IMG/VR virus record: IMGVR_UViG_3300032289_001410
Span: 1 to 24,971 of that record
DNA: 24,971 nucleotides
Direction: 5' to 3' (one strand)
Origin: a virus
Part shown: one piece after another, positions 2,876 to 21,535 of the stretch
How the letters are laid out: each line of letters opens with the position of its first letter
Position numbering within the stretch: the stretch's first letter is position 1
The notes under the pieces: model-generated
The model's database searches: none
What the model saw: only the letters and a program-made list of their open reading frames with translations
Told to the model about the DNA's origin: nothing
Program-made: the position numbers and the translations under genes

Positions 2876-3109
2876 ATGACCGCCCCGATCTACACCGAGA
2901 CCTCGACCGCGGGTTACTACGTGCTCGCGATCATCACGTCGCAAATCTGCTGCCTGCTGAAATGCGGCGGCCGGATCACCCCGATCGCCCCGGAGTCCGA
3001 CCGCGTGAAACGCTTCACCACTCTCAAGGATGCTTGGGAGACGTGCGACGAGATCATGGCCGATGGCATGGCCCCGTACTTCGTTCGGACCGAAGGGGGT
3101 GCGGCATGA
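2876..3109 (+). CDS. Hypothetical protein, 77 residues
   Basis: Not recognised. The N-terminal half is beta-rich and includes a hydrophobic segment with cysteines (YYVLAIITSQICCLLKCGG). A short basic/acidic stretch and a helix follow (TTLKDAWETCDEIMADGMAPYFVRTE). The hydrophobic segment is short and strand-like, so I do not call it a membrane helix. The stop codon overlaps the ATG of the Prim-Pol gene (ATGA at 3106-3109), so the two are likely translationally coupled and may act in the same process. Confidence 0.55.
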   Translation: MTAPIYTETSTAGYYVLAIITSQICCLLKCGGRITPIAPESDRVKRFTTLKDAWETCDEIMADGMAPYFVRTEGGAA

Positions 3110-3597
3110 CCCCCATCGAATCCCTCGCCGCCGCCGGCTGCCGGTTCGTCCGCGTCGCCCGCCGGGCGAAACGCCCGGTCGGCACCGGCTGGCAGCACCG
3201 CGGCACAACCAACCCCGCCGACGTGGCCCGCTGGCTCGCCGCCGGCGACAACGTCGGCTTGCTCCTCGGCCCCGACTCCGGCGTGGTGGACGTGGAATAC
3301 GACGACGCCGCAGGCCGGGATCAGCTCTCCGACTTCGGCATCCTCGACCTGCCCACGCCCACCTGGCGATCGGCCCGTGGCGAGCACCGCCTATTCCGGT
3401 GGGAGCCGTGGATGCCGCAGACCGCCGTGCTCAAAACCGGCTGGCTCGAGTTGCGGATCGGCGGCCGGGCCGCACAATCCGTGCTGCCTCCGTCCAGGCA
3501 TCCGGACGGCGTGGCGTATGAGTGGATCGTCAGCCCTTGCGACGTTGACGTGGCCCCGTTCCCCGCTCAACTCATGGAACAGGAGATGTTCCGATGA
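3106..3597 (+). CDS. Stand-alone primase-polymerase (Prim-Pol) domain protein
   Basis: This 163-residue protein matches the N-terminal domain of bifunctional DNA primase/polymerases (AEP superfamily, Prim-Pol type). The N-terminus has the K-R-P-V-G-T-G-W segment (22-29) typical of the fold's first strand. GVVDVEYDD (59-67) supplies the D62-x-E64 metal ligands. RSARGEHRLFRW (88-99) matches the S-GRGG-H motif with His94. LPPSRHPDGVAYEW (127-140) matches the PPS-xH-xxG-xxYxW segment. Family members make primers or short DNA strands. The usual C-terminal helicase or primase-C part is absent, because the gene stops here and is followed by a 45-residue ORF. It starts by ATGA overlap with the preceding gene. 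The fold is confident. Activity is inferred. Confidence 0.75.
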   Translation: MTPIESLAAAGCRFVRVARRAKRPVGTGWQHRGTTNPADVARWLAAGDNVGLLLGPDSGVVDVEYDDAAGRDQLSDFGILDLPTPTWRSARGEHRLFRWEPWMPQTAVLKTGWLELRIGGRAAQSVLPPSRHPDGVAYEWIVSPCDVDVAPFPAQLMEQEMFR

Positions 3598-3731
3598 CCC
3601 GCCCCACCTGGACAACCATGCTCCGCGGTGCCCTGCTCGTGCGGATCGGCCAGGAGCTCGGCACCGACTCCAGGCTCGCCCGGGCGGTGCACGACACGAT
3701 CGACGCCCTACTCGCGATCATCGGCCAGTGA
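3594..3731 (+). CDS. Small ORF overlapping the Prim-Pol gene end
   Basis: This 45-residue ORF starts at the ATGA overlap with the Prim-Pol stop (3594-3597). The sequence is MTRPTWTTMLRGALLVRIGQ, then a helical ELGTDSRLARAVHDTIDALLAIIGQ. The overlap geometry is the same as elsewhere in the genome, supporting translation by coupling. It has no recognisable domain and is too short to assign. Its last 24 bases overlap, in convergent orientation, the end of the leftward gene at 3708-4070. Confidence 0.5.
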   Translation: MTRPTWTTMLRGALLVRIGQELGTDSRLARAVHDTIDALLAIIGQ

Positions 3732-4070
3732 CAGCCGCCGCAGGGCATCGCGCCAACCAGCGTCCGCCCACCACAGTTCCAGGATAACTTCGCCGACCGC
3801 ATCGACGGTGCCGGCGAGCACCAGATTCCATAGCGGCCCGATCCCGTGAGCCAACTCCCACCGCTCCTGCACCTGAGCCCCGCACAACCGCAGGGCATCG
3901 ACAACCAGCCGGGGGTTGCGGCCAACGACCGTAGCTTCCTCGAGCATTCGGTGGGGCCAATGCCGGACAACCAACACGGTCAGCTCGTCGCACCTGCCCG
4001 CACCCGCGTAGGCCACGCGGCTCCCCAGCCGGTAGCGAACGTGAGCCTGGAGCTGGGCGAGTGGCGTCAC
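3708..4070 (-). CDS. Hypothetical protein, last gene of the leftward block
   Basis: This is a 120-residue protein. A GTG at 4070 lies just after the stop of the upstream gene (4075-4077). The longer frame would put about 75 low-complexity Arg/Pro/Ala residues opposite that gene, so I reject it. The sequence is LAQLQAHVRYRLG, then a beta/helix pattern (CDELTVLVVRHWPHRMLEEATVVGRNPRLVVDALRL) and a Trp-rich C-terminal half (LWNLVLAGTVDAVGEVILELWWADAGWRDALRRL). No catalytic motif is seen. As the terminal gene of a membrane-protein cassette it may be accessory. Its end overlaps the convergent small ORF. Confidence 0.5.
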   Translation of the reverse strand: MTPLAQLQAHVRYRLGSRVAYAGAGRCDELTVLVVRHWPHRMLEEATVVGRNPRLVVDALRLCGAQVQERWELAHGIGPLWNLVLAGTVDAVGEVILELWWADAGWRDALRRLSLADDRE

Positions 4071-4074
4071 GCGG

Positions 4075-4359
4075 TCACCGGGGCAGGGGGCACCGCCCCG
4101 TCGAGCACCCACCGCAATCGCAACGCACCCATCCGCCGTCGGGCCGGTAGATTCGGCCGCCGCCCTTGCACTTTTGGCACGACGTCGGCTGGGCAGGCGT
4201 GGCCGCCACCCGCTTCGGGGCCGGAGCCGGCTCCTGGGCGAGCGCGGCGTATGCCACGTTGACCGCACCCGCACCCCTGGCACGCTCCTCGGCAAGCGAT
4301 GCCGGATCGTGGGCCAGCCACGTCAGAACGTAAAGCAGCCAGTGCCAGAGGGCGTGCAT
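4075..4359 (-). CDS. Membrane-anchored small zinc-finger protein
   Basis: This is a 94-residue protein. The ATG at 4359 shares its A with the upstream stop (TGATG); a GTG at 4362 is also possible. The N-terminus MHALWHWLLYVLTWLA is a short hydrophobic, Trp-rich membrane segment. An Ala/Pro-rich linker follows (about residues 30-58). The C-terminal metal site is C61-x-x-C64-K-G-G-G, then C80-D-C82-GG-C85, resembling the CxxCxGxG pattern of DnaJ-type zinc fingers in small phage proteins. The topology (membrane anchor plus zinc module) is visible. Its function in the lysis-like cassette is unknown. Confidence 0.55.
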   Translation of the reverse strand: MHALWHWLLYVLTWLAHDPASLAEERARGAGAVNVAYAALAQEPAPAPKRVAATPAQPTSCQKCKGGGRIYRPDGGWVRCDCGGCSTGRCPLPR

Positions 4360-4643
4360 CACCACACCTCGTTTCGCAGCATGGGGTGGCCGTCGGCCCC
4401 GATCGAGGCGTGCGAAATACTCACCTCGTCGGCGTCGGCGGGCGTTTCGCAGAAAAACAACGCCGTCAGCCCCAGCTTGGCGGCCAGCGTGCCGACCTTT
4501 CCGAAGAACCGCAGCACCGGCCGATCCGGCCGTACCGGGCCCGGCCGGAAAGGGCTATCAACCGACGTGCCCGCCCACCAGGTCAACGCCACAAGGATCA
4601 CGCCAGCCAAAGCCAGCCGCTTTTGAGTTTCGGTCAGGGTCAC
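4359..4643 (-). CDS. Small membrane protein
   Basis: This 94-residue protein starts at GTG 4643 in a GTGA overlap with the preceding stop. The longer ATG frame at 4787 is a shadow of the GlsB-like gene. A clear membrane helix (RLALAGVILVALTWWAGTSV) lies at about residues 8-27. A Pro/Arg-rich linker follows, then a second hydrophobic helix (LAAKLGLTALFF) and an acidic tail (CETPADADEVS). Two potential spans in under 100 residues would fit a holin or holin accessory, given the neighbouring protease and other membrane proteins. There is no sequence match that proves this. Confidence 0.55.
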   Translation of the reverse strand: MTLTETQKRLALAGVILVALTWWAGTSVDSPFRPGPVRPDRPVLRFFGKVGTLAAKLGLTALFFCETPADADEVSISHASIGADGHPMLRNEVW

Positions 4644-4870
4644 GACTGGCCCTCCACATACCAAGAGTGCAGGACGACAACCACCACGGCACCGATCACC
4701 GAGCCGACCAGCCCCGCCGGCCCTTCGCCGAACGGTAGGCCGCCGGCAACGGAGCCGAGGCAGCCGAGAAGAATCGTGGGCACCCAACCCGCGGGCACCT
4801 TGCCCGGCACGAGTGCCTTAGCGATGCCGCCGACGATCGCCCCGAACACGGCCCAACAAAGGATGTTCAT
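4640..4870 (-). CDS. GlsB/YeaQ/YmgE-family membrane protein
   Basis: This 76-residue protein has the family pattern: an N-terminal helix with WAVFGAIVGGIAKALVPGK, the loop GWVPTILLGCLGSVAGG, and a C-terminal helix LVGSVIGAVVVVVLHSWY. Cellular members (sometimes called transglycosylase-associated) are small inner-membrane proteins of about 80 residues with three hydrophobic segments, linked to stress, without proven enzymatic activity. Here the gene sits in a phage operon directly after a membrane-anchored protease (ATGA overlap at 4867-4870), so a holin-like role in membrane permeabilisation is plausible. Family assignment is fairly confident. The holin idea is inference. Confidence 0.7.
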   Translation of the reverse strand: MNILCWAVFGAIVGGIAKALVPGKVPAGWVPTILLGCLGSVAGGLPFGEGPAGLVGSVIGAVVVVVLHSWYVEGQS

Positions 4871-5937
4871 AGTGCCAGCCCCCAGTTTGCATTCTGCAAA
4901 TCACGCCACTCGAGCGACGTGCCGATGGCCCAGCTATCGCCGGCCTGCAGCATCGCCTCCACGTCGGGCCTCGACGACCAGAAAGAGCCCGGCGGCTGAT
5001 CGTCAGGCCAACGTGGGCCGCCGATCCAGTTGTCGTTCCACGAGTTCTGGATGAGCCCACCATCTCGAGGGCTGCCGTTCGCACGATGCCGCACACCCCA
5101 ACAAAGCATCGCGTGCGCCCAGCGTCCGGCCCTCGACTTGAAGCCGTCGGCGTCCCGCATGGCCCCGCTCTTGGGCTCGTAGCCAACCTGCGAGCAGATG
5201 GCGACCGGTGACCCACGCTCGAGGGCGGCACACAACTCCGCCCAGGTGTTCACCTGGACGCACCGCATCCGCAGGCGGCTTGCCGCCCTGGCCAACTCCG
5301 CGGGCACACCACGATCGCCCCAGTCTCGAGCACGCGAGACCGAATACTCGCGGAGGTCATACTGACCGATCTGCTCGCGGTGCAGCACACCACCCACGGT
5401 GGAGTCCTTGCAGCGGCCGGTGATCCACCGGGCCGCGGCACCGCCATACGTTCCATCACCGACCGGCCCGCGTGACTGCGGCGGCAACATAGCCAGCGTC
5501 CGGGCACCGCCGTAAATCGGTTCGACCGCACACGCCGGCTGCGGCTTGGCAGACTTGCCCACGACAGTATCGACGGCCTCTGCCGTCGTCACCCCGAGGG
5601 CGAAGGCGTTGCCCACGCACGTCCCGATCGGCCCCTGGTCCAACGAATGCCACGGCTTGCCGTAGATCTTCTGGTGGGCCTGGTATACGGCCCGGTAGAG
5701 AAACACATCGCGGCCGGTGGCGTTGGCCATCGAATCGCGGCCCGCCTCAGCGAACGTCGGTTCGTTCAACTCCGAAAGAAACTCGCGGACGCCTTCCGGA
5801 TTCGGGGTATACCCCAGCCCCTCGTCCACCCGGCTCAACACGCGGTGGGTGTAGTGATCCACAATCGCCCCGACCAGGGCGGCGAGCATCACGAAGGAGA
5901 TGGCAGACCACGTCCAATAGCGTTGGCGGATGCTCAC
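4867..5937 (-). CDS. Membrane-anchored papain-like cysteine protease
   Basis: This 356-residue protein has an N-terminal membrane helix (about residues 8-26) and a C1-type peptidase domain. The oxyanion Gln101 and catalytic Cys107 are in DQGPIGTCVGNAFA, with the six-residue Gln-to-Cys spacing of papain (Q19/C25). His275 lies in GRWAHAMLCWG, and Asn298 is followed by Ser-Trp in IQNSWND, matching the papain N-S-W motif. All three catalytic positions are present, so the enzyme is probably active. The usual Cys-Trp after the nucleophile is Cys-Val here. Residues 30-95 could be a propeptide or spacer. It lies in the cassette of small membrane proteins, where an endolysin would be expected. Cleavage of cell-envelope or virion proteins is inferred. 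Confidence 0.8.
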   Translation of the reverse strand: MSIRQRYWTWSAISFVMLAALVGAIVDHYTHRVLSRVDEGLGYTPNPEGVREFLSELNEPTFAEAGRDSMANATGRDVFLYRAVYQAHQKIYGKPWHSLDQGPIGTCVGNAFALGVTTAEAVDTVVGKSAKPQPACAVEPIYGGARTLAMLPPQSRGPVGDGTYGGAAARWITGRCKDSTVGGVLHREQIGQYDLREYSVSRARDWGDRGVPAELARAASRLRMRCVQVNTWAELCAALERGSPVAICSQVGYEPKSGAMRDADGFKSRAGRWAHAMLCWGVRHRANGSPRDGGLIQNSWNDNWIGGPRWPDDQPPGSFWSSRPDVEAMLQAGDSWAIGTSLEWRDLQNANWGLAL

Positions 5938-6191
5938 TCCGGCTCCTCCCCGATCCGCCGCAGGCGGGGCAGCACGCGGGGAAGCACTGGCACCGGGGCG
6001 TCAGGATCGCAGTGCCGGCAGTGTGGCTCCGCTGTGGCGACGCACTCGCGGATTACGGCCAGTTCTGTCCGAATCTGGTAGAGCAGCATCGTGCAGGCGA
6101 TCGCCGTGGTGGCCACGCCCATGATGAGCACGAGGTGGGCAACGTAGAGGCCGTTGTCGATGAGTTCCCAAACGAAATCAGACACCCTCAT
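5934..6191 (-). CDS. Small single-span membrane protein
   Basis: This 85-residue protein starts at ATG 6191 (ATGA overlap with the upstream stop). The longer frame from 6242 is a Gly/Arg shadow. It has one strong membrane helix (VAHLVLIMGVATTAIACTMLLY, about residues 15-36), then a helical segment (QIRTELAVIRECVATAEP), a CRHC pair and a basic Pro/Arg/Leu tail. Size and layout fit a phage holin or spanin-like component, but there is no lipobox and no diagnostic motif. It overlaps the protease start by four bases (ATGA at 5934-5937). Confidence 0.55.
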   Translation of the reverse strand: MRVSDFVWELIDNGLYVAHLVLIMGVATTAIACTMLLYQIRTELAVIRECVATAEPHCRHCDPDAPVPVLPRVLPRLRRIGEEPE

Positions 6192-6643
6192 TGAACGGCC
6201 TCCTCTGCGGCCAACGCCAAAGCCTTGAACGCCTCCGCCCACCGTGCCCGGGTGTCGGCCGCGAGCGGCCCGCCAGACGTGCCAACCTTCTCGTCGAGGT
6301 AACGGCCAGCCGCGGCCACCGCGTGCGGTTGCTCGCGGGATAGCGACCGCGGCAGGAACCTCCCCTCGGCGGCCGCGATCCGGAGATCTTCAAGCTGCGA
6401 TCCGGTCACGATCCGCGGCGAAGATGCCGTACCGTCCACAACCAAGGCTAGCGCGATGCCGTGGCACAATCCGGCGAACGTCGCGGCGTCCTCGGCGGCC
6501 GATGGGCCGATGAACTTCCCACGCAACAGCAGCTCGCCAGCCGGGGGCGGGGGCGACTTCGGCACAAACTCCATCGCACCAGCAAGCACGGCCCCGGCCA
6601 GCAGAGCGGCCACGATCGCAAACTTTTTCTGGTCGTCGGTCAC
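6188..6643 (-). CDS. Membrane-anchored hypothetical protein
   Basis: This is a 151-residue protein. GTG 6643 overlaps the preceding stop as GTGA, and a longer in-frame start at 6676 lies inside the upstream gene. The N-terminal helix KKFAIVAALLAGAVLAGAMEF (residues 6-26) can be a signal anchor, followed by a Pro-rich linker (PKSPPPPAG). The rest is predicted soluble and mostly helical: AAEDAATFAGLCHGIALALVVDG, SQLEDLRIAAAEGRF, ARWAEAFKALALAAEEAV. No cell-wall hydrolase motif is visible. The likely location is membrane-anchored with a periplasmic domain. The role is unknown. Confidence 0.55.
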   Translation of the reverse strand: MTDDQKKFAIVAALLAGAVLAGAMEFVPKSPPPPAGELLLRGKFIGPSAAEDAATFAGLCHGIALALVVDGTASSPRIVTGSQLEDLRIAAAEGRFLPRSLSREQPHAVAAAGRYLDEKVGTSGGPLAADTRARWAEAFKALALAAEEAVQ

Positions 6644-6921
6644 TTCTTCCCTCCACTGTGCAGGAGGTCGAGCCACAACCGGTCGATCGCCTTAGACGAC
6701 TCCGGATCCACGTCGCCGGCCTTGCCGAGCGTGTCTCGCACCTCGAGCAACGAGTCGATCGCAGCCCGAGCGTCGGACGATGCAGGGGCGGGCGTTACCG
6801 GCTGCATCGGCGGCACGCGGAACAACTCTGCCGGGACCGGCACTGCCGCCTTGGTGCCCGCTGGGGGCCGCGGCCAGAACAAATAACCGAGCGCGGCGGC
6901 AACGAGGATGAGCGTTATCAT
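6640..6921 (-). CDS. Small membrane-anchored protein
   Basis: This is a 93-residue protein. Its ATG at 6921 overlaps the preceding stop by ATGA. The N-terminus MITLILVAAALGYLFWP is a membrane helix with almost no leading cytoplasmic residues. A Pro-rich linker (about residues 18-48) and a helical acidic domain follow (DARAAIDSLLEVRDTLGKAG, SSKAIDRLWLDLLHSGGKK). This topology recalls i-spanins or small holin partners. There is no outer lipoprotein partner visible, so I leave the function open. Confidence 0.5.
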   Translation of the reverse strand: MITLILVAAALGYLFWPRPPAGTKAAVPVPAELFRVPPMQPVTPAPASSDARAAIDSLLEVRDTLGKAGDVDPESSKAIDRLWLDLLHSGGKK

Positions 6922-7301
6922 GCGGCAGCACTCCGAGAGATTCGCAGGAGGGATTCAAGGGCCCCGGCCGACAGCGAGAGCACAAGCAGGCGGATGGCCG
7001 GTCGAATAGCAAGCCAGACCGGATAGGCGACGATCGGCACGCACCGATCCGAGAACGTGTCGAACAGTGCGGCGGCAGACGCGAGGGCGAAATCACGTTT
7101 CTGCGGCCCCGTCATGGACGCCACGGTGTCGAGCCCACTGACGACCAGGTGCAGCAGGGCGACCAAAAGTTGCCCAAACTCTGCCCACGTCAGTCCGTCC
7201 ACGGCCGAGGCCCGAGCAGCGGCGATGAACGCACCCACCTTGTCGCCGATCAGACTCTCGGCGTTGGCCGCGTCGGTCACGGCATCGACTGTGCCGATCA
7301 C
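6918..7301 (-). CDS. Hypothetical protein with a hydrophobic C-terminal region
   Basis: This is a 127-residue protein. GTG 7301 forms a GTGA overlap with the stop of the gene ending at 7298. A longer open frame from 7784 only exists because it runs antiparallel in codon phase through that gene, and it is Arg/His-rich there. The N-terminal half is helical (ESLIGDKVGAFIAAARAS, WAEFGQLLVALLHLVVSGLDTVASM). The C-terminal half has DRCVPIVAYPVWLAIRPAIRLLVLSLSAGALESLL, which may form a membrane hairpin or amphipathic helices. It is the first gene of the membrane-protein cassette. Function is unknown. Confidence 0.55.
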   Translation of the reverse strand: MIGTVDAVTDAANAESLIGDKVGAFIAAARASAVDGLTWAEFGQLLVALLHLVVSGLDTVASMTGPQKRDFALASAAALFDTFSDRCVPIVAYPVWLAIRPAIRLLVLSLSAGALESLLRISRSAAA

Positions 7302-7768
7302 GAGTAGCTCCCCACGCCAACGGCGGTCACGTCCACGGTGTAGGTGCCGGCCACGCTCGACGAGAACGACAGCGTCCCGCCCGTGATGCCGGAGTTGTAG
7401 TCGGCGAGATGGAACTGCCCGCCGAGGCCAACCCGGACGCCGGAGATCCCCGGATGCGTCATGGTGAGGAACCCGCCCGTCGGGCCGGTGTTCACCTGCA
7501 CCAGCAACTCCCGAACGGTCGAGACGTTGGCGGTCTGCGTGGTGCCGAGGACCGAGCCCGTGATGCCGGTGATCGACAGACTGAAACCGGCCTGAGTCCC
7601 GGTGATCGTCTTGGTCGCGGCGACGTTTGCCTGGCCCACTCCAGTTCCGTTTTCGATCGCCCGCGAGGACCGCTCCTCTCCGGTGGCGGAGTAGGAGGCG
7701 ACGGACTGCGGATCTGACAGCGACCAGGCGAGCCGGGTGGTGCCGGCTACGGTGAGAGTCGTGGGCAT
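7298..7768 (-). CDS. Virion-type hypothetical protein, beta-rich
   Basis: This 156-residue protein has a composition typical of small virion or tail-tip proteins: Thr/Ser/Gly/Val-rich, almost free of charge clusters and predicted all-beta. It includes repeated G-I/V-T-G elements (TGITGSVLGTT, NSGITGGTLSFSSSVAGTYTVDVTAV). Similar GVTG/TGPTG elements occur in the cement protein at 23554-23880 and in two tail genes. No signal peptide. The ATG at 7768 overlaps the previous stop (TAATG). A virion or decoration role is inferred from composition and position downstream of tail genes. Confidence 0.55.
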   Translation of the reverse strand: MPTTLTVAGTTRLAWSLSDPQSVASYSATGEERSSRAIENGTGVGQANVAATKTITGTQAGFSLSITGITGSVLGTTQTANVSTVRELLVQVNTGPTGGFLTMTHPGISGVRVGLGGQFHLADYNSGITGGTLSFSSSVAGTYTVDVTAVGVGSYS

Positions 7769-7992
7769 TAGCGTTTCCCTTCATCTAGGAGCCTCTTCAC
7801 CTCTGTCAGCGTCATGCCGCTGCGGATGGCGAGGTATTCGAGGTAGGTCATTTTGTTGGACGTGATCGAGCCGATGCCGACCCGGCGAGTGGGCTGGTAG
7901 TGGACATGCGTGCCGCCTTCATTCGGTGCAGCGAGCGGCTCGCGCCCGCGGCGAGTCGTCCGAAACAGCCACTCTCTCGCCTCTCCGGCCAC
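7768..7992 (-). CDS. Small hypothetical protein, 74 residues
   Basis: Not recognised. A GTG start at 7992 is preceded by a purine-rich GAGGGGAGAGGG about 8 bases upstream, the best ribosome site nearby. The N-terminal half is basic and probably disordered, with HVHYQPTRRVGIG. The C-terminal half is a helix-turn-helix-like pair (TYLEYLAIRSGMTLTEVKRLLDEGKR). That helical pair could bind DNA or a protein, but it is too short to classify. Confidence 0.45.
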   Translation of the reverse strand: MAGEAREWLFRTTRRGREPLAAPNEGGTHVHYQPTRRVGIGSITSNKMTYLEYLAIRSGMTLTEVKRLLDEGKR

Positions 7993-8024
7993 GGTCTGCC
8001 CTCTCCCCTCTATTGTACGTTTGT

Positions 8025-8576
8025 TCAGGTGCCCGGATTGTCCATCACCTCATACATGCACGCGGCGTATCCGGCGATGTCCACGGGGCCGTCGACCGTG
8101 GCATTCGGCCCCCGGAACCGGGCGATCTTGTCGAGGATCATGATCGTGGCCCAATCCGCCTCGGTGAGCGGACGTTTCAGCACGTCGGCGAAGGCCGCAT
8201 TGACCATGCCGATCGTGCGGGCGAAGTGTTGTTTCGGCCCGCCGTATTTCGGACGCCGGTCGCGGATCACCTCCGCCGTGCGGTGGCACAACTCTTCGGC
8301 GGGCGTTTCCTTCGCCGGCTTGTCGCCATCGCACCCGTATACCTTCCGCTCCGTCGGCCCACGCTCCCGATACTTCGCCCACGCCTCTTCGACGATGGCG
8401 GACACCTCCGGCGTGGTGTGCTGCTTCCCCTCCAGCATCAGCATGATCTCCTCTCTCTCGATGATGAGTCTCCGAACGTGGGCCGCCATGGACCCGATCG
8501 TTCCCGTCCACTGCCCCTGGTAGCGACGTGCGTCCCGGTTGGCTTGTGCGATGTAGTCGTCGGAAAGGAGAGTCAC
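8025..8576 (-). CDS. DUF6378-like phage protein
   Basis: This 183-residue protein starts at GTG 8576 in a GTGA overlap with the phosphoesterase stop. The C-terminal half matches the pattern I know from phage DUF6378 proteins: IRDRRPKYGGPKQHFARTIGMVNAAF, then TEADWATIMILDKIARF, then DGPVDIAGYAACMYEV. The family is common in phages and often annotated near nucleotide-metabolism genes. Its activity is not established to my knowledge. The N-terminal half is helical (DDYIAQANRDARRYQGQW, VRRLIIEREEIMLMLEGK). Its pairing with a phosphoesterase suggests a nucleic-acid or nucleotide role, by context only. Confidence 0.65.
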   Translation of the reverse strand: MTLLSDDYIAQANRDARRYQGQWTGTIGSMAAHVRRLIIEREEIMLMLEGKQHTTPEVSAIVEEAWAKYRERGPTERKVYGCDGDKPAKETPAEELCHRTAEVIRDRRPKYGGPKQHFARTIGMVNAAFADVLKRPLTEADWATIMILDKIARFRGPNATVDGPVDIAGYAACMYEVMDNPGT

Positions 8577-18419: not shown

Positions 18420-18880
18420 CAGAGCACCTTTTCTTGGCTTCGCCGGTAGACCACGGCAATGTCGGCAAGGAACGTCCGCATGTTCGCCACTTGGTCGCGG
18501 CCGAACGTCACGACGTTTTGGATGCTCATCCAGTGAGTGCCGGCCGGCATGGCCGGCGTCGAGGCCGGCAACGCCTTGGAGCGAATGGCATCAACGATGT
18601 CGCTCCGCAGGTCGTAGAGGGAATCCAGCTCGGCGTCGGTGTCGAATCGCTTGGCGATCACAACATGGACGGTCGGCTCGAAAAGGTCGGCCCCGTGGGT
18701 GTGATTGCTCACGTCCACCTCGCCTGGAACCACAGACACCTGGAGCGTGTCCAGATTCTCCGTTACCTCGTCGGGAACGATCCGCCGTACCGCGGTGATC
18801 GTCTTGATGTCGCCGGGAAACGTGAACTTGGAGAGCGAGTCGGCGAGCGAGTCGCAGATCAGTATTTCGATGGCATTCAT
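18419..18880 (-). CDS. Tail terminator/completion-like protein
   Basis: This is a 153-residue protein. The ATG at 18880 overlaps the glycosyltransferase stop (ATGA). The sequence has an N-terminal helix (IEILICDSLADSLSKF), strands (TLQVSVVPGEVDVSNHT, FEPTVHVVIAKRF), a helix (ELDSLYDLRSDIVDAIRSKAL) and a beta end (MRTFLADIAVVYRR). The size and alpha/beta order match tail terminator/completion proteins that cap the tail tube. Its position next to the gp10-like gene and upstream of the tail tube genes fits. The family assignment is from pattern and synteny. Confidence 0.6.
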   Translation of the reverse strand: MNAIEILICDSLADSLSKFTFPGDIKTITAVRRIVPDEVTENLDTLQVSVVPGEVDVSNHTHGADLFEPTVHVVIAKRFDTDAELDSLYDLRSDIVDAIRSKALPASTPAMPAGTHWMSIQNVVTFGRDQVANMRTFLADIAVVYRRSQEKVL

Positions 18881-19929
18881 GGCTTGGGTCCGTCCTCTCC
18901 TATCATTCTCTCAAGTGCCGAGACGTTGGCGGCGTGGCGAGGCTGGCCAGGGTTGCGGGCCGCGGCCTCGCGGGCGTAGGCGAGGGCCTCGTCAAGCAGG
19001 CCCAACTCGTAGGCGGCGGAGTAGGCGAGGTCTGCCGGGGCATCCCCATAGCACTCCGGGTCGCTCGTATGCGTGCGATTCTCATCGCTGCAGTTGATCG
19101 CCTGCCGGGCGAAGTGCAGCGTGGCCGCGGCATCATGCGTCTTCCAAGCAAGGTTGGCGACGTGGACGTAAGGCTCCGGCTCCAGCGGTGCCTCCAGCAT
19201 GGCCGCCAGCATGTGCAGGTTGCCGCCCTTCGGATCCAGCCTCGCCAGCGACCGGCGGGCATAGGCCCGCTCGTTTGGGGCCCCGCCCGGCATTTTGAGA
19301 TAGGCGGCGAACGCCGGCCCGGCATCCTTGTCCCCGGCGTAGTCCAACTCCCGGGCCAGATACCACGCCATGCGGGCGTCGGTCGGATTCTCGGCCACGG
19401 CCCGGCGGAGCAACTCCAGGTCGGTGCGGTGTTTCTTGTCGGGCTGCCGGTGGTGCCGGATCACCAGCCCATCGGAGTAGGTCTGCACCTCATCGCCCGA
19501 CCACCGCACAAGCCCCTCGTGTGTCGCCCCAGACCACCGATACCCGTGCCGGGAGTGAACCCGATCGCAGCGGAACCGCACTTCGTTCGACCACCAGTAC
19601 CAGTAGCGGAGTTTCGTTGTCTCCGGCTTCCAATCACGCTCCAGGGCTTCCCGCCAGCCGGGGTCGAGGGCTTCGTCGAGGTCCAGCCGGATCACCACGT
19701 CGGCGTCGGCCGGGGCGTGCATTAGCGATAGGTTGTGGGCGTCGTCCCACCGCCACGGGATCGGAGCCCCGTGGGCCACCGACACCCCAGCGTTGCCGAG
19801 CAACTCCAGGGTGCCGTCCGTGCTGCCGGTGTCAGTCACGACCCGATGGTCGGCATCCCGGCAGGAAGCCTCCCACCGCTCGACGTTGGCGGCCTCGTTC
19901 TTGGCAAGAGCGTAGATGGCTACCTTCAT
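18877..19929 (-). CDS. GT2-type glycosyltransferase with a helical repeat tail
   Basis: This 350-residue protein has an N-terminal GT-A domain: ALAKNEAANVERW at 7-19, TDTGSTDGT at 32-40, and the DxD sugar-nucleotide/metal motif in RLDLDEAL (81-88), followed by a Trp/Tyr-rich acceptor region (KLRYWYWWSNEVRFRCDRVHSRHGYRW). From about residue 165 it has TPR-like repeats (LELLRRAVAENPTDARMAWYLARELDYAG, AYSAAYELGLLDEALAYAREAAARNPGQP). GT2 proteins with such tails transfer sugars to proteins or envelope glycans. Flanked by a methyltransferase and a GH130-like gene (all overlapping), it may glycosylate virion or host-surface glycans. The acceptor is unknown. Confidence 0.8.
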   Translation of the reverse strand: MKVAIYALAKNEAANVERWEASCRDADHRVVTDTGSTDGTLELLGNAGVSVAHGAPIPWRWDDAHNLSLMHAPADADVVIRLDLDEALDPGWREALERDWKPETTKLRYWYWWSNEVRFRCDRVHSRHGYRWSGATHEGLVRWSGDEVQTYSDGLVIRHHRQPDKKHRTDLELLRRAVAENPTDARMAWYLARELDYAGDKDAGPAFAAYLKMPGGAPNERAYARRSLARLDPKGGNLHMLAAMLEAPLEPEPYVHVANLAWKTHDAAATLHFARQAINCSDENRTHTSDPECYGDAPADLAYSAAYELGLLDEALAYAREAAARNPGQPRHAANVSALERMIGEDGPKP

Positions 19930-20486
19930 GTCAGGATGGCCCCCTTCCGCAGCCCATCGTCGAAATACTCAACCGTGCAAGCCTGCTCCCGTGCGAACTG
20001 CTCCACCGCCGCCTTCACCGCCTGGTTGTCGCAGTCGTCGGCGAGAATCACTCGGCTGCCGGCCACCAGCCGAAGATCGGCCAAGGCACCCTCGTAGGAG
20101 TGGTCCCCGTCAACATGGGCGAAGTCCGCCGGCGGGAGGCTCTTGATGGCGTGCGAATCCACCACGATCAGGTCGGCGTCGATCTCGTGCCGCTCCACAA
20201 GCCGACGCCAGTGGGCGAGGCAGTCGTAGCTGTCCGCATCCATCGCCCCGTCGATGCACAGGAACCGTGCCCCAGGTGCCGCCTGGTGGAACGTCAGCAG
20301 CGAATACCCGCAGCGGGTGCCGATCTCGATCACTCGCCTGGGGCGGTATCGCTTGAAGATCTCGCCCTTCATGGCGTAGTGGAAGATCACGCGGCTGTCG
20401 CAGCCGAACCAATCATCCTCACGCCAGTTGCTTTCAAGGGCACGGCGGACGGTCTCGGTCCAAGCTGCGGAGGTCGTCACTCCCAT
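19926..20486 (-). CDS. Class I SAM-dependent methyltransferase
   Basis: This 186-residue protein has SAM-binding motif I in VIEIGTRCGYS (52-62), an acidic loop after strand 2 (CIDG, 77-80), and HVDGDHSYEGALADL (124-138), typical of the Methyltransf_24/cephalosporin-hydroxylase-like subgroup that methylates small molecules or sugars. Metal-type acidic residues DGDH and DDCDN (150-154) are present. Its start overlaps the GH130-like gene by 10 bases and its end overlaps the glycosyltransferase by ATGA, so the three are surely co-expressed. Sugar O-methylation of a glycan is a reasonable guess. Confidence 0.8.
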   Translation of the reverse strand: MGVTTSAAWTETVRRALESNWREDDWFGCDSRVIFHYAMKGEIFKRYRPRRVIEIGTRCGYSLLTFHQAAPGARFLCIDGAMDADSYDCLAHWRRLVERHEIDADLIVVDSHAIKSLPPADFAHVDGDHSYEGALADLRLVAGSRVILADDCDNQAVKAAVEQFAREQACTVEYFDDGLRKGAILT

Positions 20487-21535
20487 GCGTCACCCATGAT
20501 GTTGACCACGTCGGCAATCGGGATTCGGGCGAGCCAAGCCTCGGCGTCTTGGACGCCGAACGAAGCCATCAGCGACTCCTGATCGTTGACGCAAAGACCG
20601 GCACAGAACTCGATCGTTCGCGATTCGCGAAATGCGAACGGCGGCGACACCCTGACGATTTTCCAGTCTGCCGCCTCGTCGAACGTGACGAACCGGTGTT
20701 CGTAGACCCGGCGGCCACCGGAGACGGCGACCTCGTGGACGATCGCCCACCACAATCCCGGTGCCCACGGGTGCTCGACAAGTTGCGACCCGCCCCGGAA
20801 GCCACGGGCGACCGGCGGAGCCTCGGCGTGAGCCGTCACGGTCCAGTCGTTTTCCTGTTCTCGCACAAGGCACGTCCGGCCTTCGTGGCTGCAGTGGTAG
20901 ACGAACTCTTTCCGTCCGGTGATCGGCATCCAGTTTTTTTCGTGCCGGCCGTCGATCGTGGAGTGGACCCGCAGCCCGTCGATCCGATCGACCAAGTCCA
21001 ACCGGCCAACGCCGATCCGGCATGTGCCGTCCATGCGGGCCCAGTTGCGGACAGTAGCCGAGACGATCAGCCTGCCGTCAACGGAGTTGAGGCGCACGTC
21101 CTCGAGCCCCTCGACGGGGTATCCGGTCGTCTCGTAGTCTGCCGACCAGTAGGTGGCCTGATCGCGTCCTGGAATCCACAGGCAGTTCCGTGTCTTGATC
21201 GTCTCGCGATCTTCCGGCGGCATGACGTACCGGCCGTCCACGATCCGGTAGTTGCTCGACCGGACGTTGACCAGCATCCGGCCGTGGTGGATCACGACCG
21301 ACGGGTTGAACAGTGACCAGCCGGGGGATGCAGGCTCGCATTCCACTCTTTCGAATGTGGAACGAACGCCGAGATCCCGGAGCGTCTGCGTGTACCACGT
21401 CCGATTCGCCCGGACCTTCTCCTCTTTCTCCGGCGACAGCGGCAGCCGGAGCAGGCGTTCGCACGCCCGGCGGCCGGCGGGTTCCTCGCCGACGTAGTAG
21501 GCGTGGGCGGCGATGCGGTAAAGGTGTTCAATCAT
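20477..21535 (-). CDS. GH130/GH43-like beta-propeller glycosidase-type protein
   Basis: This 352-residue protein has a short helical TPR-like N-terminus (IAAHAYYVGEEPAGRRACERLLRLP, residues 8-32), followed by a five-bladed propeller-like sequence. GH130-type landmarks are visible: FNPSV (76-80), VNVRSSNYRI (89-98), GLEDVRL (143-149, compare EDPR), KNWMPI (200-205, compare KN-x-x-x-P), GGSQLVE (248-254), and a late ASFGVQDAEAWLARIP (324-339, compare YGAAD). GH130 members phosphorolyse or hydrolyse mannosides. Whether the catalytic acid is kept is not clear, so it could be a binding protein or a glycan-modifying partner of the glycosyltransferase. It follows a 66-base gap containing a weak GGTGAACAGG leader. 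Confidence 0.65.
   Translation of the reverse strand: MIEHLYRIAAHAYYVGEEPAGRRACERLLRLPLSPEKEEKVRANRTWYTQTLRDLGVRSTFERVECEPASPGWSLFNPSVVIHHGRMLVNVRSSNYRIVDGRYVMPPEDRETIKTRNCLWIPGRDQATYWSADYETTGYPVEGLEDVRLNSVDGRLIVSATVRNWARMDGTCRIGVGRLDLVDRIDGLRVHSTIDGRHEKNWMPITGRKEFVYHCSHEGRTCLVREQENDWTVTAHAEAPPVARGFRGGSQLVEHPWAPGLWWAIVHEVAVSGGRRVYEHRFVTFDEAADWKIVRVSPPFAFRESRTIEFCAGLCVNDQESLMASFGVQDAEAWLARIPIADVVNIMGDAWE

Follow-up and report, generated by a model that had tools for sequence, protein, structure and literature searches.

How does a virus open its host when the gene block in lysis position encodes a protease and no recognisable peptidoglycan hydrolase? This question is raised by positions 3708-7301 of the window, the 24,971-base virus contig analysed here, whose ends do not overlap and which is thus probably a fragment. 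The record terminates inside its own capsid-type gene, ahead of any visible head-protease gene. Its late genes occupy the minus strand and end at 3708, facing there a group of plus-strand genes that includes a Prim-Pol gene (3106-3597). The early region contains two paralogous small helix-turn-helix-like proteins (25-354 and 2174-2434; family F050). Three genes that are not obviously structural (18877-21535) sit inside the structural operon; by eye 18877-19929 is glycosyltransferase-like, and the gene family with a methyltransferase match is probably that of 19926-20486.

A sequence-only reading had described the block as nine overlapping genes at the end of the late operon, most with a membrane helix. 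The coordinates are correct, and the nine small genes are all co-directional on the minus strand. Overlaps of 1-4 bases, at GTGA, ATGA, or TGATG junctions, join the eight genes from 7301 down to 4075, whereas the ninth (3708-4070) stands 4 bases apart. At least one hydrophobic segment of membrane-spanning length is present in seven of the nine, in agreement with that reading. For the window, a position closing the late operon is accurate, but in relatives the cassette occupies three positions: at the tail region's end, ahead of the terminase gene, or between the prohead protease and capsid genes.

The first cassette gene (F003; 6918-7301) uses a GTG start and encodes a holin-like protein of 127 amino acids with two hydrophobic segments. 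It is followed by a 93-residue protein (F007; 6640-6921) with a hydrophobic N-terminus, a proline-rich linker, and a helical tail, and then by a 151-residue protein (F002; 6188-6643) with an N-terminal membrane helix and a predicted helical extracytoplasmic domain. The structure model of F002 (pLDDT 78.7) corresponds to no known fold, as Foldseek returned no match at E ≤ 0.001, and a hidden lysozyme was rejected for this protein because a fold match was absent. An 85-residue protein with a single membrane helix and a conserved PVLPRVLPR tail (F008; 5934-6191) precedes the membrane-anchored papain-like protease (F001; 4867-5937; 356 amino acids). Beyond the protease lies the second holin-like candidate (F004; 4640-4870), a glycine-rich protein of 76 amino acids with two to three hydrophobic segments that matches PHROG 15180, a family of unknown function (E 5e-5). 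The remaining genes encode a 94-residue protein with a single membrane helix and a polar C-terminal tail (F000; 4359-4643), a 94-residue protein with a cysteine-rich tail bearing CxxC pairs (F011; 4075-4359), and, last, a 120-residue protein without a membrane segment (F037; 3708-4070). Both holin-like proteins are candidates by hydropathy, and the cassette's small proteins match none of the holin and spanin family models. Directly upstream of the cassette, also on the minus strand, the gene at 7298-7768 (F012) falls outside the module.

The catalytic residues previously read from the letters (Q101, C107, H275, and N298) lie exactly at those positions, make up the papain set, and do not vary among 38 aligned relatives, which range down to 28% identity. 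The same Gln-Cys-His-Asn set, in order, also occurs in two more distant clades, namely the plasmid pPLIM01 and the second-clade homologues described below. In the AlphaFold model of the 4867-5937 product (pLDDT 86.7, pTM 0.85), the best solved match is xylellain of Xylella fastidiosa (Z 21.9, 245 residues, rmsd 3.2), followed by cathepsin and papain entries at Z 17-20. Sequence searches against solved structures, with the single protein or small profiles, gave weak matches only, with xylellain already the top profile match. None of the Pfam and PHROGs models identifies F001 as a protease; PF00112 leaves the window protease unmatched and reaches only E 0.0075, below its curated cut-off, for the distant relative L067. 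F001 is therefore named papain-like (C1A-type) by its modelled fold and its catalytic set, which support its designation as a predicted protease, and not as a member of PF00112. Its N-terminus is a membrane helix with basic residues ahead of it, which by the positive-inside rule predicts a catalytic domain outside the cytoplasm.

Relatives of F001 were found in 66 viral contigs, 62 of them close, and in each of the close loci whose contig is long enough, gene-order comparison showed the protease flanked by core cassette genes. Gene calling on the window and fifteen of the longest related contigs gave 262 protein families, only four of which occur in all 16 contigs: the protease and its cassette neighbours F003, F002, and F000. 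F007 is present in 11 of the 16. These cassette-bearing contigs are unrelated backbones. The cassette is co-directional and overlapping with late structural genes, and in some backbones it lies within the structural operon. Pattern scans of bacterial genome contigs found no relative. Some related contigs (alignments A4, A5, and A8) also encode a TET/JBP-type oxygenase, a TET-associated glycosyltransferase, and a cytosine methylase, a set that suggests DNA hypermodification.

The first cassette gene has 405 relatives among viral contigs and occurs in an alternative cassette too. Among 144 loci fetched with F003 or the 6188-6643 family, 127 also show the F001 protease; most of the remaining 17 end before the protease slot, and six have 5-8 kb downstream without F001. 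Those six instead carry, in the slot, a different set of small membrane proteins together with a protein about 290 residues long and a trypsin-like serine protease whose N-terminus is signal-like. The ~290-residue protein carries a conserved Q76, C82, H234, D252 pattern and is a second cysteine-protease candidate; it has no solved-structure match and is thus a protease by motif only. Its comparison with the window protease gave no support for homology, and cultured phage records hold no match to either protein, the pPLIM01 protease alone giving weak partial matches there. The trypsin-like protease (Trypsin_2, E 8.5e-21) follows the second candidate in 42/42 loci with room, and its zinc-ribbon-like N-terminus resembles F011. 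F001 occurs in 217 loci and the other cysteine-protease candidate in 88, with both together in none; some contigs enter the count through more than one locus, and the distinct full-length sequences number 128 and 62, respectively.

One contig, L329, represents the window's own phage type carrying the alternative cassette. It shares 92.5% DNA identity with the window over 7294-8575 and 71-90% in other matched segments, and the strong homology extends no further than the F012 stop codon, the junction with the first cassette gene, beyond which a different cassette begins. The right-hand border at 7301 is thus a real module border. In the window-type backbone, F037 lies downstream of both protease types. 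Among 77 loci with relatives of the neighbouring tail gene, 27 have one protease type and 50 have neither, many of these ending before the slot. The block 3708-7301 is a genuine, exchangeable, compact late module, as its recurrence and its replacement support.

A second clade of F001 homologues (L405-L418, L455, and L064-L067) stands in another cassette. There, the protease has a twin-arginine (Tat-type) motif wherever its N-terminus is present, loci that are long enough have a PKD-type anchored protein upstream of it, and nearly all loci have a thioredoxin-domain protein after it with a small membrane protein beyond. Most of the thioredoxin-domain proteins, which carry a CxxC pair, have a hydrophobic segment at the N-terminus, and two of them match solved thioredoxins (E 7e-10 and 2e-10). 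A relative of the PKD-type protein also precedes the pPLIM01 protease (E 1e-11). Comparison of F002 with the PKD-type proteins gave no support for homology, so that the two share position only. Because the proteases of the window family and of pPLIM01 have an N-terminal anchor and those of the second clade a Tat-type motif, both groups are predicted to be exported. By eye, the protease gene appears split by two inteins in L413 (4576-7761) and L414 (4585-7758), one directly before the catalytic Cys and the other beside the catalytic Asn motif; the second of these is also present in L455 (30-1355).

The plasmid pPLIM01 belongs to Planctopirus limnophila DSM 3776 and encodes an F001 homologue (26.6% identity, profile E 7e-21). 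It is a circular 37 kb phage-plasmid with terminase, portal, capsid, and tail genes, and its terminase aligns with those of G001-type contigs at 36% over 514 amino acids (E 2e-103). These similarities support a link, and the virus family appears to infect Planctomycetota, the window's own host being placed there only by way of pPLIM01. The earlier guess of a host with protein-rich envelope layers fits this assignment. None of murABCDEFGJ is essential in P. limnophila, whose essential genes include one for a wall protein with a YTV domain (PMC10632474). Cysteine-rich YTV proteins have been found in planctomycete wall preparations, and most Planctomycetales are without peptidoglycan genes (PMC8567305). 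P. limnophila does have a number of genes for peptidoglycan, and the presence of peptidoglycan in Planctomycetes has been reported (PMC4432640).

The impression that no hydrolase motif is visible was borne out by a profile search of the nine cassette proteins, in which no peptidoglycan hydrolase model matches. A conventional endolysin elsewhere in the genome had been named as evidence to the contrary, and none was recognised in circular pPLIM01 or in four contigs with overlapping ends: G001 (236 bases, 99.6%), G002 (821 bases, 97.3%), G004 (127 bases, exact), and G009 (74 bases, exact). These four are probably complete genomes, although their database class is linear. When their gene families and long uncalled ORFs were scanned with Pfam, no peptidoglycan hydrolase was among the families listed, and the same holds for pPLIM01 among the Pfam matches listed (25 of 29 families). 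Six-frame searches for Amidase_2, CHAP, NlpC/P60, phage lysozyme, SLT, and M23 were all negative, the first being run without pPLIM01 and the window and the last two covering seven records; CHAP (PF05257) and NlpC/P60 (PF00877) matched 0 of 17 records at E ≤ 0.1. A recognisable lytic protein is reported in 97.4% of dsDNA phages (PMC12596118). These proteases, too, go unrecognised by the Pfam papain model, so a peptidoglycan hydrolase of similar divergence could escape detection.

With host walls that are largely protein and no recognisable peptidoglycan-cutting enzyme, the virus family probably bursts its hosts by digesting protein. We consider it rather probable that the cassette is a lysis or envelope-breaching module with a protease in place of a peptidoglycan hydrolase. 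Under this proposal, the exchangeable late module would open the host envelope from within as infection comes to its end. The small membrane proteins accompanying the protease would include the putative holins at 6918-7301 and 4640-4870, and the papain-like enzyme, tethered by its N-terminal helix with a catalytic domain predicted to be periplasmic, would fill the place that a peptidoglycan hydrolase has in ordinary lysis cassettes and may cut wall proteins. Proteolysis would fit hosts with a cysteine-rich protein wall, and a thioredoxin adjoining the protease would suit a wall rich in disulphides. A bolder version, tentative and perhaps mistaken, is reductive-proteolytic lysis, in which exported proteases would dismantle a disulphide-linked, cysteine-rich wall, with exported thioredoxin helping in one clade and no peptidoglycan hydrolase needed. 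A literature search turned up no paper describing a lysis system in planctomycete phages or how phages of Planctomycetota exit their hosts.

The protease could instead be a conventional endolysin in disguise that cuts the peptide cross-links of peptidoglycan and not wall proteins. Papain-fold enzymes of the NlpC/P60 and CHAP types are peptidoglycan hydrolases (PMC10318531), the matches of a viral structure search also include phage proteins with the names N-acetylmuramidase and Peptidoglycan binding-like and, with weak scores, mycobacteriophage Lysin A, and peptidoglycan is reported in Planctomycetes (PMC4432640). However, the best structural matches are general papain and cathepsin proteases with the Q-C-H-N set, neither CHAP nor NlpC/P60 matches, the alternative cassette has a trypsin-like serine protease, and P. 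limnophila can dispense with most peptidoglycan-synthesis genes (PMC10632474), which together make a disguised endolysin unlikely. We regard as similarly improbable a membrane-modifying module unconnected with lysis, for instance one for prophage superinfection exclusion or surface remodelling, with lysis carried out by an unrecognised gene elsewhere. The co-directional, overlapping arrangement with late structural genes, and the location inside the structural operon of some backbones, speak against such a module even though its many small membrane proteins would suit one, and a prophage-stage function is conceivable from the integrase-like gene in related contigs and from the phage-plasmid nature of pPLIM01. 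Each genome does have several genes without known function, but all families present in 16/16 contigs belong to the cassette, so that a lysis gene outside it would not be the same one in every lineage.

A virion protease, acting in capsid maturation or in entry through the envelope, is the least probable of these explanations and very unlikely. A maturation role had been named earlier as a reading that would count against lysis, and the location between prohead protease and capsid genes in some backbones would be in keeping with it. Yet the F001 family has a membrane anchor or Tat-type motif, its companion genes encode membrane proteins, and relatives encode a separate prohead protease, S78 or ClpP-like, next to the capsid gene, so that the papain-like enzyme is not needed for maturation in the genomes checked.

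If proteolytic lysis is the correct reading, with protease modules that are swappable, it would suggest phage lysis to be matched to the load-bearing material of the host wall, and the lysis enzyme would serve as an indirect assay of that material. The role is directly testable, as genetic work is feasible in P. limnophila, whose strain DSM 3776 harbours pPLIM01 with its protease homologue.

Several known systems invite comparison. F001 shares its predicted fold and catalytic Gln-Cys-His-Asn with xylellain and the papain/cathepsin C1A proteases, and the region matched to xylellain takes in the N-terminal segment ahead of the catalytic domain. Unlike the C1A proteases, it is membrane-anchored, stands in a lysis-like phage cassette, and, at about 20% identity, falls below PF00112 detection. 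The CHAP and NlpC/P60 endolysin domains are likewise papain-like superfamily enzymes directed against bacterial envelopes, but F001 matches neither model (17 records) and has other structural neighbours. PeiW and PeiP, the pseudomurein endoisopeptidases of methanogen viruses, are described as peptidases of viral origin by which hosts with an unusual kind of wall are lysed (PMC4592898, PMC2989375); they differ in cutting the peptide of pseudomurein, a wall polymer, and the likeness drawn here is one of role. Relative to holin-endolysin-spanin cassettes, the enzyme is a predicted protease in place of a peptidoglycan hydrolase and the companions lack a holin or spanin model match, but the module is likewise late, compact, and exchangeable, and combines small membrane proteins with one putative envelope-attacking enzyme.
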